Positions 10,650-25,924 of a DNA stretch of 27,210 nt are shown one piece after another. Below the pieces are notes generated by a model, which worked only from the letters and a program-made list of their open reading frames with translations, searched no databases and was not told the origin of the DNA. The position numbers and the translations under genes are program-made. The DNA comes from Intoshia linei. Lineage: Eukaryota; Orthonectida; Rhopaluridae. Location: the NCBI GenBank assembly GCA_001642005.1, contig LWCA01000444.1, positions 1 through 27,210 on the forward strand, read 5' to 3'. The stretch's first letter is position 1. The number at the start of each line of letters is the position of its first letter.

Positions 10650-13600
10650 ATGAGGTACAATTAAAACATAATTTTTATTTTTAATTTTTTAGTTTGACTG
10701 GATTAACAGTGTTGATTACTGGTGCCAGCAGAGGCATTGGAAAAGCTTTGGCATTAAGATGTGCAACTCATGGTGCAAATATAATAGCTACGGGTAAAAC
10801 TTCCGACCCTCATGCTAAGTTGAAAGGGACTATTAACGAGACTGCCCAGCAAAGTTTTTAATTTAAATTTTTAAATAATTATTAATTTTTAAGTCAAAGA
10901 ATTGCACGGAGAATGCTTACCACTCCAATTGGACGTTAGGGACGAAGAAAACGTAAAGTATGTGGTATCCGAATCGGTCAAACAATATGGTAGAATCGAT
11001 ATTTTGATCAATAATGCCGGAGCTATATATCTGACCAATACACTTAAAACCTCCATGAAACAATATGATTTGATGAATAGTGTTAATGCTCGAGGAACAT
11101 ATTTAATGTAACATTATATTTATACATCTGATGGGCAATCTTTTGCGATTACAAATAAGGTACTCTAAAATATTTATTTTGGAAACCAACGTTTATTGAG
11201 TTATCCAAAATTTAAAATTTCACTCTTTTTCGTGTATCCCATGAAAAAAATTTTATGTAAAACGTTTTAAAGTAAATAAAATAAAATAATGTAATGTAAA
11301 ATAAAGTATATAAATAAACCACTTTTTGAATTGGAAGGAGGAAGACTGAAAATGACACAGCGTTGGGTGCTACTGTGATGTAAGATAAGATTTGTATTTA
11401 CAATTTTTTTTGAATTTACAATCGGGTCAACTTTTGGAAACCATGAATTAATGTATATTATTTAAATAGGTCAAAATATTGCATAAATCACATGAAAAAA
11501 TCAAAGAATGCGCACATTTTAAATTTAAGCCCTCCCATCAATCTTAATCCTGTATGGTTAAAAAACCACGCTGCGTACACACTTTCAAAATACGGAATGT
11601 CCATGTTTACAATAGCCATGTCCCATGAATTGCGACCTTTCAGTATTAAAGTCAATTCATTGTGGCCTCAAACAGCGATATATACTGCCGCAATGGAAAG
11701 GTTGGGTGGTGGAGATGGGGTAAAAAAGTTTTGTCGTTCCTCCGAAATTCTTTGTGATGCTGTTGAGGAAATTTTTAAAGATGGATCTGATAAAAACAGT
11801 GGAAATTTGTATATTGACGAAGAATTGTTAAGGAAAAAGGGGCATATTGATTTTGAAAAATATTCTCTAGGTGATGCCACTTTATTAACCGATTTTTTTA
11901 TTGGAGATTCTGTTCCCACTGACTTTTCCGTAAAAAAAGATGTAAATATCCAAAAAATTGTCGAAAAAGTTGCTAAATCTATCAATAATGATATGATACA
12001 ACAAGTCGGTGCAAAGTTTATAGTAGATTTTGGTGGTAAGTTTAATTTATAATCAAGGTCAAATTAGCAAATTTACTTGTGTTTTTTTGTGTCATGGTGG
12101 TATCTTGCAACCGGTTTAACTTTAACTAAAATATAAAACATTTAATAAAAAATTAAAGGTTTTTTCTCATAAGATTTGGTAAAATCGTGTTTTTCAAAAA
12201 AATATTGAAAAAGGGAATTTTTATTTTGGGGTTTGATTAAGTGGATTTTTTAAAAAAATCTTGGTAAAAGTCTATTCTTTCCTGAGGGTTTGAAATGGTA
12301 CTTTTTTATTAATTTTTATTAAAAGTGGAATTTGTGAAATAATAATGTAGCGGTCGTCTAGGATTTGGGATAAATGGCATACATCTGAACCAGATGATCT
12401 GGTAACTCCGTAATAAATACTAAAAATTCTGTTATCAAAAATAAACAAAAGTTGATAAATTAATAATAAGGACCCTAGTCTTATAATTTTAGACCCTCAA
12501 TCTAGAACCACTAATGTAGAGGATTAGGTAACTCGCAACAGGCTAATTGTAGAGAGAGCGAATGATGAAACTTGGATCGACGTTCTAGTCTCTAGAACAG
12601 GGGTGCACAACATGCGGCCGTGAGTAATTCATGTGATCACTGATCATAGTTAAATACATTTTACTTCAAATTGAAAAGTTTAAATCAGATTTTATTCAAT
12701 ATTTGTGTCAAAAAGTTACATTTTTGACTATGGCCACTTTCTCAAAATGGATTTAAACTTTCTCAATGTCATTACATTGTGTGCGGCCGTAGTATTAATG
12801 AGTAAAGTAGCTTTCCGGCTTAATTGGTAGAAAGGTTGTGCACCCCTGCTTTAGAATCTAGTGCTGTGATGACCAGACTTTTCAGTTGGTGTATCAAAAA
12901 TTTTTTTTGCTGTTTTCTTCTATAGTTGAGTATAACTTTTAAATGATAAACAATTTTAGGTATGTATACTTTTCTATTATTGCATTTTTAACACCATATT
13001 AAAAATTTCAAATAAGTTTTGGAAGATTATTAGGCAGAATCCCTAGTTACTAGTGACACGCGCGTTATATTTTTGCCATCACTGTTCTAGTGCGTCACGA
13101 GAAGATCGATATCATGTGCTAAGTATTTTTTTACTCATTGGGTGCACCGTTAAACTTTTCATTAAATTTGAGTGCGCCTACAGTAAAAGGTTTTGAAACC
13201 GCTGATCTAGAGAATGGACATCCAATTTAATAGATTAAAAATAAAATTATATTTATATAATTTATTTTTAATCTTATAATTTTTATCGCCCGTTAAAGAA
13301 CATTGGGTTAAACCACTGTTTCCCAACATTTTTTATGCTAGGCCCCACTTTGAGTCTTGAAAAAATCCCAGGCCTATTAAAAAAAAATTCGAGCGAATTA
13401 TAATAAAATAATGATAAAAATAATAATAATGTATTTATTTTTTAGAATTAATGAGACGATTGACCCTGATGATTCTGACAGAGTTTATTAATATTAGGCA
13501 CTAATGTTGTAAGCTTTAATCGTATGTCTCCCTTTTTTGAAATTTGCAGTCTAAATATTTTTTTGTTAGTAAGTCTAAAACTGCACTAAACCCGCATTCT

Positions 13601-14154
13601 GCTAAATAAGAGGATGGAAATATCAACAAAGCAATCTTAGCAAAAGTAGTTAAAGTCGAATAATTTTGCATATAGTATATGATATACTCATCAATTTAGT
13701 TAAATTTGAATTCAATAGCCAACGATCATTAAAGATATATTTGTTTTTTGTCATTCTAATAATTTAATAATACAATTAATTGGTTCAAGTATCACATAAC
13801 CACTTATAAACCTGAAAATATTGTATAAAATTAACAACAAATGAATCTAAAGCTTTCATAATCCTATAAATTTATAATATTTTCCAGGCCCAACGGTTGG
13901 GAAACACTGGATTAAACAGTTAATTATAATTCCTAGAAACCAAATACATATTGGATTTAAAAAAAAATGGAACGTTCCAAGAAAAACAAAAAAATGAAGA
14001 ATCAACTGATGCTACATTGAAAATAAGCGCAGAGGACTTTTCAAATATAATGAGTGGAAAATCTAGTGCTATGGATGCATATGTTTCTGGAAGACTACAT
14101 ATTGAAGGTGATATAGAATGCGCCATGAAACTGGCTAATGTGATAAATAAATAA
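10650..14154 (+). CDS. HSDL2: Hydroxysteroid dehydrogenase-like protein 2 (SDR plus SCP2 domain)
   Basis: Five exons: 10650-10654, 10693-10853, 10894-11107, 11470-12035 and 13937-14154, giving 1164 nt and 387 aa. The first exon is just ATGAG, which joins to give MSLTGLTVLITGASRGIGKA. SDR landmarks: TGASRGIG cofactor loop near residue 10, INNAGA, LNLSPP with the catalytic Ser region, and YTLSK (the YxxxK catalytic pair). The HSDL2 signature NPVWLKNHAAYTLSKYGMSM is intact. The C-terminal SCP2-like lipid-binding domain spans the last two exons (VGAKFIVDFGG, KISAEDFSNIMSGK, YVSGRLHIEGD). The relatives act on lipids in mitochondria or peroxisomes; the C-terminus here (VINK) is not a peroxisomal PTS1. 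The last intron is 1.9 kb and holds two hAT elements; the last ends 27 nt before the acceptor. AATAAA abuts the stop. Confidence 0.92.
11108..11469. other. HSDL2 intron 3, nothing recognisable
   Basis: A 362-nt intron with GT and AG ends. It is longer than most here, contains AT-rich sequence with runs of taaaataa, and shows no exon or transposon motif. Confidence 0.5.
12160..12300 (-). repeat. Dispersed repeat B, copy 2 (inverted)
   Basis: In HSDL2 intron 4. Its reverse complement follows the same block order as 8530-8695 (ttaccaa, ttttttaaaaaatccactt, aatcaaacccc, ttttgaaaaa, ttttaccaaat). The match is diffuse and AT-rich, so homology is likely but not certain. Confidence 0.4.
12598..12848. 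mobile_element. hAT-type MITE, 251 bp, with TIRs and 8-bp target duplication
   Basis: The left end caggggtgcacaaca and right end ggttgtgcacccctg form terminal inverted repeats of about 14 bp. Flanks are ctctagaa (12590-12597) and ctttagaa (12849-12856), an 8-bp duplication with one mismatch. The CAGGGGTG-type terminus, 8-bp duplication and central TA are characteristic of hAT transposons. Two gcggccgt motifs sit near the two ends. There is no coding capacity, so it was mobilised by a hAT transposase encoded elsewhere. It lies in HSDL2 intron 4. Confidence 0.9.
13172..13204. mobile_element. Possible solitary hAT right end
   Basis: The stretch gtgcgcctacagtaaaag followed by gttttgaaaccgctg reads in reverse complement as a CAGCGGTTTCAAAAC terminus, similar to hAT ends. 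The adjacent atctagag could be a target duplication, but no matching left end with that duplication was found. Confidence 0.35.
13314..13909 (-). mobile_element. Internally deleted hAT (Buster-like) element, 596 bp
   Basis: Ends cactgtttcccaac and gttgggaaacactg are perfect 14-bp inverted repeats. The flanks ggttaaac (13306-13313) and gattaaac (13910-13917) form an 8-bp target duplication with one mismatch. Inside, the minus strand from about 13620 to 13448 encodes the hAT transposase C-terminal dimerisation region: FPSSYLAECGFSAVLDLLTK, a frameshift, then LKLTTLVPNINKLCQ and NHQGQSSH before TAA. Most of the transposase is gone and one frameshift remains, so this copy is dead. It lies at the end of HSDL2 intron 4. 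Confidence 0.92.
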
Positions 14155-16480: not shown

Positions 16481-17263
16481 TTATTTAAATGGATTAACAA
16501 AAATATTGAATAGTCGTCTTGAATCGAAGTTTGAATTGTGGTAAATCATAAACCTATACAAATGATAAAGAACACTGATTTGAGTAATCTTGTTAGGTAC
16601 AAACATTGTATAAAAAGGTTGCTCCTCTATATAAACGTGAATAGGTCGATTAGATTTTAAATGATCGGCATGCCAAATTATTAAAAGATATATGTACATG
16701 GTAAAAGTGACCGAAATGTACGTGAAAGCTGTAAGAATAAAATGAGAAAAATAAGAATATCCCAATAACCAACCGATCAATGTTATTATTGGAACCAATC
16801 GTGTAAATCCGACAACACTGAAAATTGGATTAATGTATATAAAATAAAAAACCATAAACACTGCATATATAAACATGAAAATAAATAGGTATAGGAGAAA
16901 AATAATGGATTGTTTTCTGTTTTTGTCTCCAACGCATTTACCCAGAAGGTAGCTGTGATAAAAAAAACCGTCGACACATTTTCGACACATTGTACAATGT
17001 TGTGTCGATTCGTCCATTTGAGCTAAACATCGTACACAATTTCGCACAGTTTCTGGTTTAGTTTGACAAGCTAGTTTTTTTCCAAATTTACTTCGTAAAT
17101 TAATACTTATCCAATTAAAAACGACTTGGAAAGCGATAAAATACCATAATAACTTCATTAGCCATGGAACGTTCAATTCAGGAATAATTACTGATTTCAT
17201 CAACCATATCATCATGCAAAATGTCGAGCAAAAAATTGCTGTTAATATTTTTTCAAATGGCAT
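16481..17263 (-). CDS. DHHC-family membrane protein with degenerate FYHS motif
   Basis: A single uninterrupted 260-aa frame, the only intronless gene here. Hydrophobic segments near residues 7-27, 35-55, 122-150 and 155-200 suggest four transmembrane spans, as in palmitoyltransferases. Between spans 2 and 3 sits the cysteine-rich domain: NCVRCLAQMDESTQHCTMC, then RKCV, then DGFFYHSYLLGKCVGDKN. The zinc-binding CxxC, HCxxC and C-V-G cysteines are kept. The catalytic Asp-His-His-Cys position, fixed by the spacing between CV and KCVG, reads Phe-Tyr-His-Ser. Loss of the acyl-accepting cysteine predicts no autoacylation, so this is probably a pseudoenzyme or a highly diverged member (ZDHHC23/24-like by LLGKCVG). 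An 8-base A run at 16970-16977 lies next to the motif; the frame is open on both sides, so a compensated indel is unlikely. AATAAA overlaps the stop. Confidence 0.85.
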   Translation of the reverse strand: MPFEKILTAIFCSTFCMMIWLMKSVIIPELNVPWLMKLLWYFIAFQVVFNWISINLRSKFGKKLACQTKPETVRNCVRCLAQMDESTQHCTMCRKCVDGFFYHSYLLGKCVGDKNRKQSIIFLLYLFIFMFIYAVFMVFYFIYINPIFSVVGFTRLVPIITLIGWLLGYSYFSHFILTAFTYISVTFTMYIYLLIIWHADHLKSNRPIHVYIEEQPFYTMFVPNKITQISVLYHLYRFMIYHNSNFDSRRLFNIFVNPFK

Positions 17264-17518
17264 TTTAATGTCAGTTATTCAAACAAGTTTATTTTTAAGT
17301 TTTACTTGGTACTAGGTAAATGTTTTTTATAACGCTCAATTCCTGGTAAATTTTTAATATTTTTGACCTACCGTCAATACGCGGTAATCCTTTTCATTTA
17401 ATTATATAAAATTGAATTTCTGTGTCTTTTACTGTATATTTAAAAAATTAATAGTCGTAGAATGTAAAAAAGCCAATTTCTAATACTTTTATGCAGAGTT
17501 GTTTATGTCTATTTTTTG
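17264..17518. other. Upstream flank of the DHHC gene
   Basis: About 255 nt of AT-rich sequence 5' of the minus-strand DHHC gene. It presumably contains its promoter. No specific element can be defended. Confidence 0.35.
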
Positions 17519-17705
17519 GTTTCCGAGTTTGAGTCCATTAGGGTCAAAAACCCAATTTTCGCTTTAGTTTAAAAATTATCTTAGCCCAAAATTTTAATAA
17601 AACATATTCTGGGATGCGTTGTAAAATCATTAACATTGTGGTAAATCTTCAAAACGGTCAAACGTAAATGATCAAAATCACAAATTACCCTTTGTTTTAA
17701 AAATG
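17519..17705 (-). repeat. Dispersed repeat A, inverted partial copy
   Basis: The reverse complement contains the repeat A blocks aaagggtaatttgtgatttt, an aatgttaatgatttt block and aaaattgggtttttgaccct. It lies about 180 nt from a direct copy starting at 17889, making a potential foldback. Confidence 0.55.
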
Positions 17706-17888: not shown

Positions 17889-18490
17889 CGGGAATGCGTA
17901 GATTCCTGGGGTTGAAATTTTGTATTTATATCAACTGGAATTAGCTATTTCAGAATAATCTTTTTTTAAATTTTCGGACCGTTAATTATTTCATATTTTT
18001 TGTTTTAATAAAATATTTCGGACAAAAAAATATATTAATACTAAAATGCTTTTTTGACTGTGAATCGTCACTTATTTGGATTGAAATTTTTTATGTGTGT
18101 TAACAGGATACAACTGTACCACCTGTAAATTTTTTGAAATTCTAGGGCTGTTTTCATTAAAAAAATAAGGGTAATTTGTGGTTTTGGCCCTGAAGATATA
18201 ATTTTNTTTGGATTGAAATTTTTTATGTGTGTTAACAGGATACAACTGTACCTACCTGTAAATTTTTTGAAATTCTAGGGCTGTTTTCATAAAAAAAGAA
18301 GGGTAATCTGTAAATTTAAAAAATAAGGGTAATTTGTGGTTTTGGCCCTGAAGATATAATTTTTTTTAAATTTAAATTTATGATAATGTTTATGATTTTA
18401 AAAACTTTTAAGAGTGGTAGTTGTTTCAATAAAGTGTAACACACAGACACACAAACAAAAATCGCGTAGCCTTTTATACAAGTTAGGATT
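17889..18490 (+). repeat. Dispersed repeat A, copy 4, with internal duplication and an N
   Basis: Starts gggaatgcgtagattcctgg, matching copy 1, and ends in an acacacagacacacaaac tract followed by cgcgtagccttttatacaag. The block that begins ttggattgaaattttttatg occurs twice (about 18077-18205 and 18207-18360). The junction holds the only ambiguous base of the window (18206). The duplication may be real or an assembly join. Confidence 0.7.
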
Positions 18491-18675
18491 TATCACATTG
18501 AAAATGACAAAATAGGTTTTTATAATTTTATTTTTTCTGGAATTTGTGCTATTTATGACAATTTTTAGGATTTGACTGTTTTTACTTTATTTTTAATATT
18601 ATACACACCTTCTATCTAATAAATTAAAAAAATGGGATAACAATTTTTTTTAAAATTCTTTACACAAATGTTAAA

Positions 18676-18855
18676 ATCTGTCATACAATCAGACTTTTGA
18701 AACAATATTTCGTAAATAATATAGAAGTATTGACATGGGTAGCTCAAAGTCCTGATCCTAACATAATTGAAATGTTATGGGAAATATTGAAGAGAAAAAT
18801 TAGGAAAAGAGGTCCTACAAATATATTGAAGCATAAAGAAATGTTAATCCAATAA
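18676..18855 (+). mobile_element. Tc1-family transposase C-terminal remnant
   Basis: Fifty-nine codons in one open frame followed by TAA. The peptide includes RLLKQYFVNNIEVLTW, VAQSPDPNIIEMLWEILKRK and IRKRGPTNILKHKEML. The AQSPD-x-N-x-IE-x-LW-x-x-LK motif is the third catalytic acidic block (the Glu of DDE) of Tc1 transposases. Nothing readable remains of the first two Asp blocks, apart from a weak His-Thr just upstream. No terminal repeats were found. Confidence 0.88.

Positions 18856-21100: not shown

Positions 21101-25924
<4,824 letters not shown>

Follow-up and report, generated by a model that had tools for sequence, protein, structure and literature searches.

A DHHC-family gene of Intoshia linei with Phe-Tyr-His-Ser at the catalytic motif and all eight zinc-ligand positions kept

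The DHHC-family gene and its surroundings

The DNA analysed here (the window) is one entire contig of 27,210 nucleotides (LWCA01000444.1) of the Intoshia linei assembly GCA_001642005.1, which comprises 34,653,042 bases in 1319 contigs; the GC content of the window is 27.5%. On the minus strand, an open frame of 260 codons runs from 17263 to 16484 and is closed by a stop codon at 16483-16481 (whole coding frame 16481..17263); by eye, this stop codon shares bases with an AATAAA-like signal. The encoded protein matched the Pfam DHHC family (PF01529) with 48.1 bits (E 1.5e-12) against a curated cut-off of 28.7 bits, and it was assigned to the family on this basis. Eight distinct sequences among the solved DHHC structures were matched at E ≤0.001, human DHHC20 being the best (E 1.9e-6), and a search of NCBIfam gave no match to the protein.

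Measured from stop to stop, the frame is 265 amino acids long. The longest open frame in 200 simulated windows of the same size and composition averaged 108 amino acids and in none exceeded 161, and therefore the 260-codon frame is not a product of chance. The initial annotation had described the frame as intact, and this was confirmed by the 260 codons without a stop and by the Pfam DHHC match above the cut-off. Codon usage, on the other hand, speaks against coding: at -0.09 log-odds per codon, the frame ranks under every one of the 17 control exons taken from the window (-0.04 to 0.15) and scores about as high as a typical non-coding frame (median of 102 such frames, -0.10). Most of the five alternative frames of the gene itself score as well or better (-0.14 to -0.03). 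This score takes in the amino-acid make-up, and the low value may be explained by the Phe/Ile/Tyr-rich make-up of a membrane protein.

The window also carries repeats and transposase-like frames. A dispersed repeat, about 90-110 bp long, has a copy at about 17385-17490, which is 80-89% identical to 39 other places in the assembly, among the 40 scored of 355 candidates. Ten of these copies, aligned with the window copy, have by eye a sharp left edge in common (AATCC, then TTTA..TATATAAAATTGAAT), and this edge is located about 120 bp upstream of the start codon of the DHHC-family gene. Imperfect direct repeats form two pairs at 18072-18384 (108 nt at 78% and 71 nt at 90%), and an inverted piece related to them lies at 17673-17702; the repeats at 18072-18384 look like the remains of nested mobile elements, and the single N of the window, at 18206, falls inside this region. 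By eye, a frame at 18628-18852 looks like the final part of a transposase of the Tc1/mariner type (AQSPDPNIIEMLWEILKRKIRKRG), and a minus-strand frame at 13451-13695 resembles the dimerisation region of hAT transposases; Pfam gave no match for 13519-13695 within the latter frame, and Rfam gave no match in the window.

The assembly itself is compact (34.65 Mb) and AT-rich in the parts examined; its introns measure 32-42 nt, nine DHHC loci were recovered from it, and it may represent a reduced parasitic animal. Dicyema japonicum has introns of 38 bp and a GC content of 36.7% (PMC6736024). Searches of the assembly gave 12 matches to 5S rRNA at E ≤0.001, none to COX1 or 5.8S, and no exact match to an 18S word.

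Zinc domain, motif and membrane spans

The cysteine-rich zinc domain covers residues 76-110 (16934..17038, minus strand), as placed by the match to solved DHHC structures and by comparison with the consensus. All eight zinc-ligand positions are kept, namely C76, C79, H89, C90, C93, C96, H103 and C110, which we take to be the ligands from the consensus and from the DHHC20 structure. The consensus of the cysteine-rich domain was taken from PMC4192757 and has 21 positions, 11 of which are kept in this protein: the eight ligands and V111, G112 and N115. Among the ten lost positions are all three triad residues (D, H and C) and, within the domain, those of (R/K)P.R. Comparing the ligands (8/8 kept) with the other consensus positions (3/13 kept) gave a hypergeometric value of 8e-4, a figure that assumes equally constrained positions, which they are not. 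According to the same source (PMC4192757), two residues alone, the motif Asp and a late Asn, are invariant in the DHHC proteins of yeast, worm, fly and human, and cysteines of the domain are absent from some of these proteins. Here the motif Asp is lost and N115 is kept, so the pattern is not merely the usual order of conservation.

At the position of Asp-His-His-Cys, the codons TTT TAT CAC AGC (16952..16963, minus strand, read from 16963 to 16952) encode F101-Y102-H103-S104. The spacing around this motif, CV-x3-[FYHS]-x5-CVG, is canonical on both sides. The replacement of DHHC by FYHS noted in the initial annotation was thus reproduced, and so was its detail: the nucleophilic Cys is Ser (S104), and the Asp and the first His are changed as well (F101 and Y102). 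DHHC proteins contain two zinc sites, each made of three Cys and one His (PMC8059564). In DHHC20, Asp153 polarises His154, which deprotonates and activates Cys156, and this cysteine is no zinc ligand (PMC8059564, PMC9006032). The three residues lost from the motif are exactly the catalytic triad, and the protein therefore lacks the Asp-His-Cys by which a catalytic zDHHC S-acyltransferase is recognised. With 8/8 ligand positions kept and 3/3 triad positions replaced, the preservation of the zinc ligands alongside loss of the triad, which had been proposed from the first reading of the sequence, held as well.

A run of eight A (eight T in the coding strand) is located at 16960..16967 of the plus strand. 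Because frame and canonical spacing hold on both sides, an insertion or deletion in this run cannot explain FYHS, and a frame-shift error at the motif appears unlikely from the sequence. At least four base substitutions within 12 bases are needed to pass from codons for D-H-H-C to those for FYHS. Towards the C-terminus, residues 207-210 (PIHV; 16634..16645, minus strand) stand opposite TTxE in two alignments, which are not statistically secure outside the zinc domain, and the TTxE motif is apparently missing from the protein.

An AlphaFold2 model was built from 20 sequences (mean pLDDT 63.6) and contained long helices at residues 2-25, 32-67, 113-144 and 172-204 together with several short ones. 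The zinc domain sits between the second and third long helices of this low-confidence model and is itself unfolded there, mostly with pLDDT below 50. Hydropathy peaks were found at 9-27, 38-56, 120-138, 150-168, 159-177 and 178-196, those at 150-168 and 159-177 overlapping. A Foldseek comparison of the model with the PDB returned one match at E 9, which is not meaningful. For the four membrane spans of the initial annotation, the four long helices agree, but the model is of low confidence, has several short helices and leaves the zinc domain unfolded; about four spans would be a fair reading.

Introns, paralogues and relatives

Ten introns were read by eye from the joins between homologous exons; they are AT-rich and 32-42 nt long. 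Two of the ten (L002 and the AAA gene) are multiples of three, so an open frame here can conceal one. The AAA-ATPase frame at 21743-22123 reads through an in-frame, stop-free, intron-like stretch of 39 nt, and ORF calls in this genome can therefore include introns.

Within the DHHC-family gene, the best in-frame intron-like stretch is 42 nt long (coding positions 405-446; 16818..16859, minus strand) and scored 10.9, and a second in-frame candidate at coding positions 491-535 scored 5.3; the best candidate of any length, 35 nt at positions 412-446, scored 13.8. True introns scored from 5.8 to 25.2 when each was left out in turn, and the controls with shuffled synonymous codons had a median of 7.5 and a 95% point of 17.2 for in-frame candidates, and of 11.9 and 18.4 for candidates of any length. 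Although the scores fall in the range of true introns, the gene appears to carry no signal of a hidden intron beyond chance. None of the eight best candidates overlaps the motif. A frame-shifting intron of 47 nt near the 3' end, picked by eye, was not among these eight candidates. The gene had been called the only intronless one in the window. No frame-breaking intron is needed in it, and the other Pfam-recognised genes examined in the window are by eye split between frames, but in-frame introns do occur, so that this claim stands as a probable one; from its sequence the gene is likely intronless.

The DHHC-family search of the assembly gave ten matches at nine loci, both numbers being lower bounds for a possibly incomplete assembly. 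The DHHC motif was read at each of the eight other loci (C835, C1267, C825, C381, C70, C347 with two matches, C506 and C913) and is kept in all of them; C506 and C913 score below the family cut-off. In C913 (L010), near the family match, a micro-exon only about 28 nt long, flanked by introns of 35 and 37 nt, apparently encodes the motif (by eye). Apart from the FYHS gene itself, a search of the assembly with its protein recovered just two DHHC loci, both distant (E 1.5e-4 and 1.9e-4), and a DNA search revealed no second copy of the gene among the best 40 of 355 candidates. The initial annotation had considered a retrocopy origin and advised a search for an intron-bearing, catalytically intact parent; nothing nearer than the two distant loci was recovered from this possibly incomplete assembly. 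Without a close parent there, a duplication, if there was one, either dates far back or has a parent that was lost or is unassembled, and a retrocopy origin, if true, would be an old one.

In a collection of 5.8 billion proteins, which includes animal proteins, no relative was found at E ≤0.001 among 199 candidates, and residues 40-215 found none at E ≤10 among 121 candidates; such searches reach only proteins that share short exact words. Viral and prokaryote contigs contained no locus matching the protein.

From LLGxCVG and a similar spacing, we suspected a relation to ZDHHC24. In the vertebrate protein the motif is likewise followed by LLGxCVG, and CVG and the TTxE position lie about as far apart by eye, but DHHC is retained where this protein has FYHS. 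Comparison by hhalign with 18 vertebrate ZDHHC24 proteins gave a probability of 92.8 (E 3.9e-7) over residues 60-223. HMMER gave 28.0 bits for the zinc domain, -0.4 bits for the C-terminal part and -0.8 bits for the N-terminal part; with the signal confined to the zinc domain, similarity to ZDHHC24 outside it is not significant. When turtle ZDHHC24 was compared with the assembly, this locus was the sixth of seven matches, five other DHHC loci matching better, and vertebrate ZDHHC24 found no locus in viral contigs.

Possible role and meaning

Departures from DHHC are already known, both in active proteins (DHYC, DQHC) and in an inactive one (GABPI). Akr1, Akr2 and Pfa5, with DHYC, and ZDHHC13, with DQHC, are active and retain the Asp and the nucleophilic Cys (PMC4192757; for ZDHHC13 also PMC8107437). 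Fly CG17197, an unstudied protein, has Arg as the second motif residue (PMC4192757). In Drosophila GABPI (CG17257), the pilot of beta4GalNAcTB, the motif Cys is Ser; this protein is reported to have no palmitoyltransferase activity and is required for the activity of a glycosyltransferase (PMC4192757, PMC6258472). A role of GABPI in Golgi targeting of the glycosyltransferase is given in the title of a reference (PMC6258472), and GABPI has been termed non-enzymatic, with a suggested role as substrate presenter (PMC9374236).

The protein described here and GABPI are both DHHC-family membrane proteins whose motif Cys is naturally Ser (S104 here). They differ in that GABPI has six spans and only its Cys is reported as changed, whereas here the Asp and the first His are lost too and about four spans are predicted with low confidence; the parallel, made by description and not by sequence, is one in kind only. 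By analogy with it, we hold with about even confidence that the gene encodes a non-catalytic DHHC-family membrane protein (pseudo-palmitoyltransferase), acting as an escort or scaffold as GABPI does in Drosophila. As all zinc-ligand positions between spans 2 and 3 are kept, the zinc domain would be expected to fold, and these positions, along with the hydrophobic spans, point to a membrane protein that is folded and binds. With the nucleophile replaced by Ser, the general base His by Tyr and the polarising Asp by Phe, no palmitoyl-cysteine intermediate would be formed, so that palmitoyl transfer by the known mechanism would not be expected. The protein would be made, kept by selection and active through binding, and its most likely use would be the holding of another membrane or Golgi protein. 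The assembly contains one match to the C-terminal domain of glycosyltransferase family 7 (GT7), which makes a client of the GABPI type at least possible, and one Erf4-family match, which makes a partner of the DHHC-enzyme type possible; neither match decides anything.

The main rival to an escort or scaffold is a regulatory decoy, a dead protein that would bind an active DHHC enzyme or sequester its substrates, so that palmitoylation by one of the eight motif-keeping paralogues would be reduced or redirected; we consider this fairly unlikely. Human DHHC20, ZDHHC9 and ZDHHC5 and yeast Erf2, all active zDHHC enzymes, have the zinc-ligand pattern and spacing in common with this protein and a similar span layout in the low-confidence model, which favours a decoy, and they differ from it in carrying Asp-His-Cys in place of Phe-Tyr-Ser and in the TTxE that it apparently lacks. 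Partners that tune DHHC enzymes are known (Erf4/Golga7 and SelK; PMC8059564), and the Erf4-family match in the assembly would fit with them, but no close active paralogue was found from which the interaction surfaces of a decoy could have come.

Decay into a pseudogene, or relaxed constraint on a gene whose frame has not yet broken, is in our judgement unlikely. When neutral substitution was simulated from the present sequence (1000 trials each, at the present base composition, substitutions without indels), the frame stayed free of stops with a probability of 0.08 at 0.05 substitutions per site, falling to 0.007 at 0.1. Multiplied by the probability that the 12 motif bases take four or more changes, this never exceeded 1.6e-4 over the four divergences examined. 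That 260 codons are stop-free in spite of those motif changes, and that the zinc-ligand positions are kept, argues against simple neutral decay, which would be a poor fit under this model. Decay is favoured by the strong divergence, with 10 of 21 consensus positions lost, by the failure to find a relative in the protein collection and by the codon log-odds resembling those of non-coding frames. The earlier proposal of selection rather than decay was upheld in part: the kept ligands, the lost triad and a frame more intact than simulated decay agree with it, and the chaperone or decoy role named with it is a candidate one. The codon scores lend no support to coding.

It is very unlikely that the protein is still catalytic by another mechanism, with Ser as acyl carrier or with direct transfer from acyl-CoA within the membrane cavity. 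Yeast Swf1 and Pfa4 partly tolerate the loss of the motif cysteine, which would favour such a mechanism, as would the existence of active natural variants with DHYC and DQHC. Those variants retain Asp and Cys, however, whereas here the Asp, the first His and the Cys are all lost and TTxE is apparently gone as well; moreover, an Asp-His mutation in Akr2 abolished acylation (PMC8107437).

An artefact of assembly or splicing, in which base errors or a concealed mini-intron alter the reading of the motif, is also very unlikely, the least likely of these readings: one assembly is the sole source of the sequence, introns of 32-42 nt are sometimes in frame and T8-ATCACAG at the motif looks by eye like a splice acceptor, but at least four substitutions in 12 bases without a change of frame would be needed, the spacing is canonical on either side, none of the eight best intron candidates touches the motif, and a splice to this acceptor would by eye cost zinc-ligand cysteines or fall below the length of the introns read in this genome.

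The non-catalytic escort or scaffold is thus the reading that we prefer, and with less than even confidence we tentatively extend it to a lineage-specific pseudo-palmitoyltransferase, in which the whole triad and probably TTxE were replaced and every zinc ligand stayed under selection. There are few descriptions of natural DHHC proteins that lack the catalytic cysteine, GABPI being the sole named case in the extracts of the open-licence literature searched, and no protein that has lost the whole triad but retained every zinc ligand was found described in them. A zinc frame kept with its chemistry lost would part the binding and trafficking roles of the fold from catalysis. It would also be a caution for genome annotation, since a gene with a DHHC domain need not encode a palmitoyltransferase. 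If the lineage-specific reading is true, a DHHC protein would have become a membrane escort or scaffold for a second time, GABPI being the first, and the switch would have occurred in an animal with only about eight motif-keeping DHHC genes.
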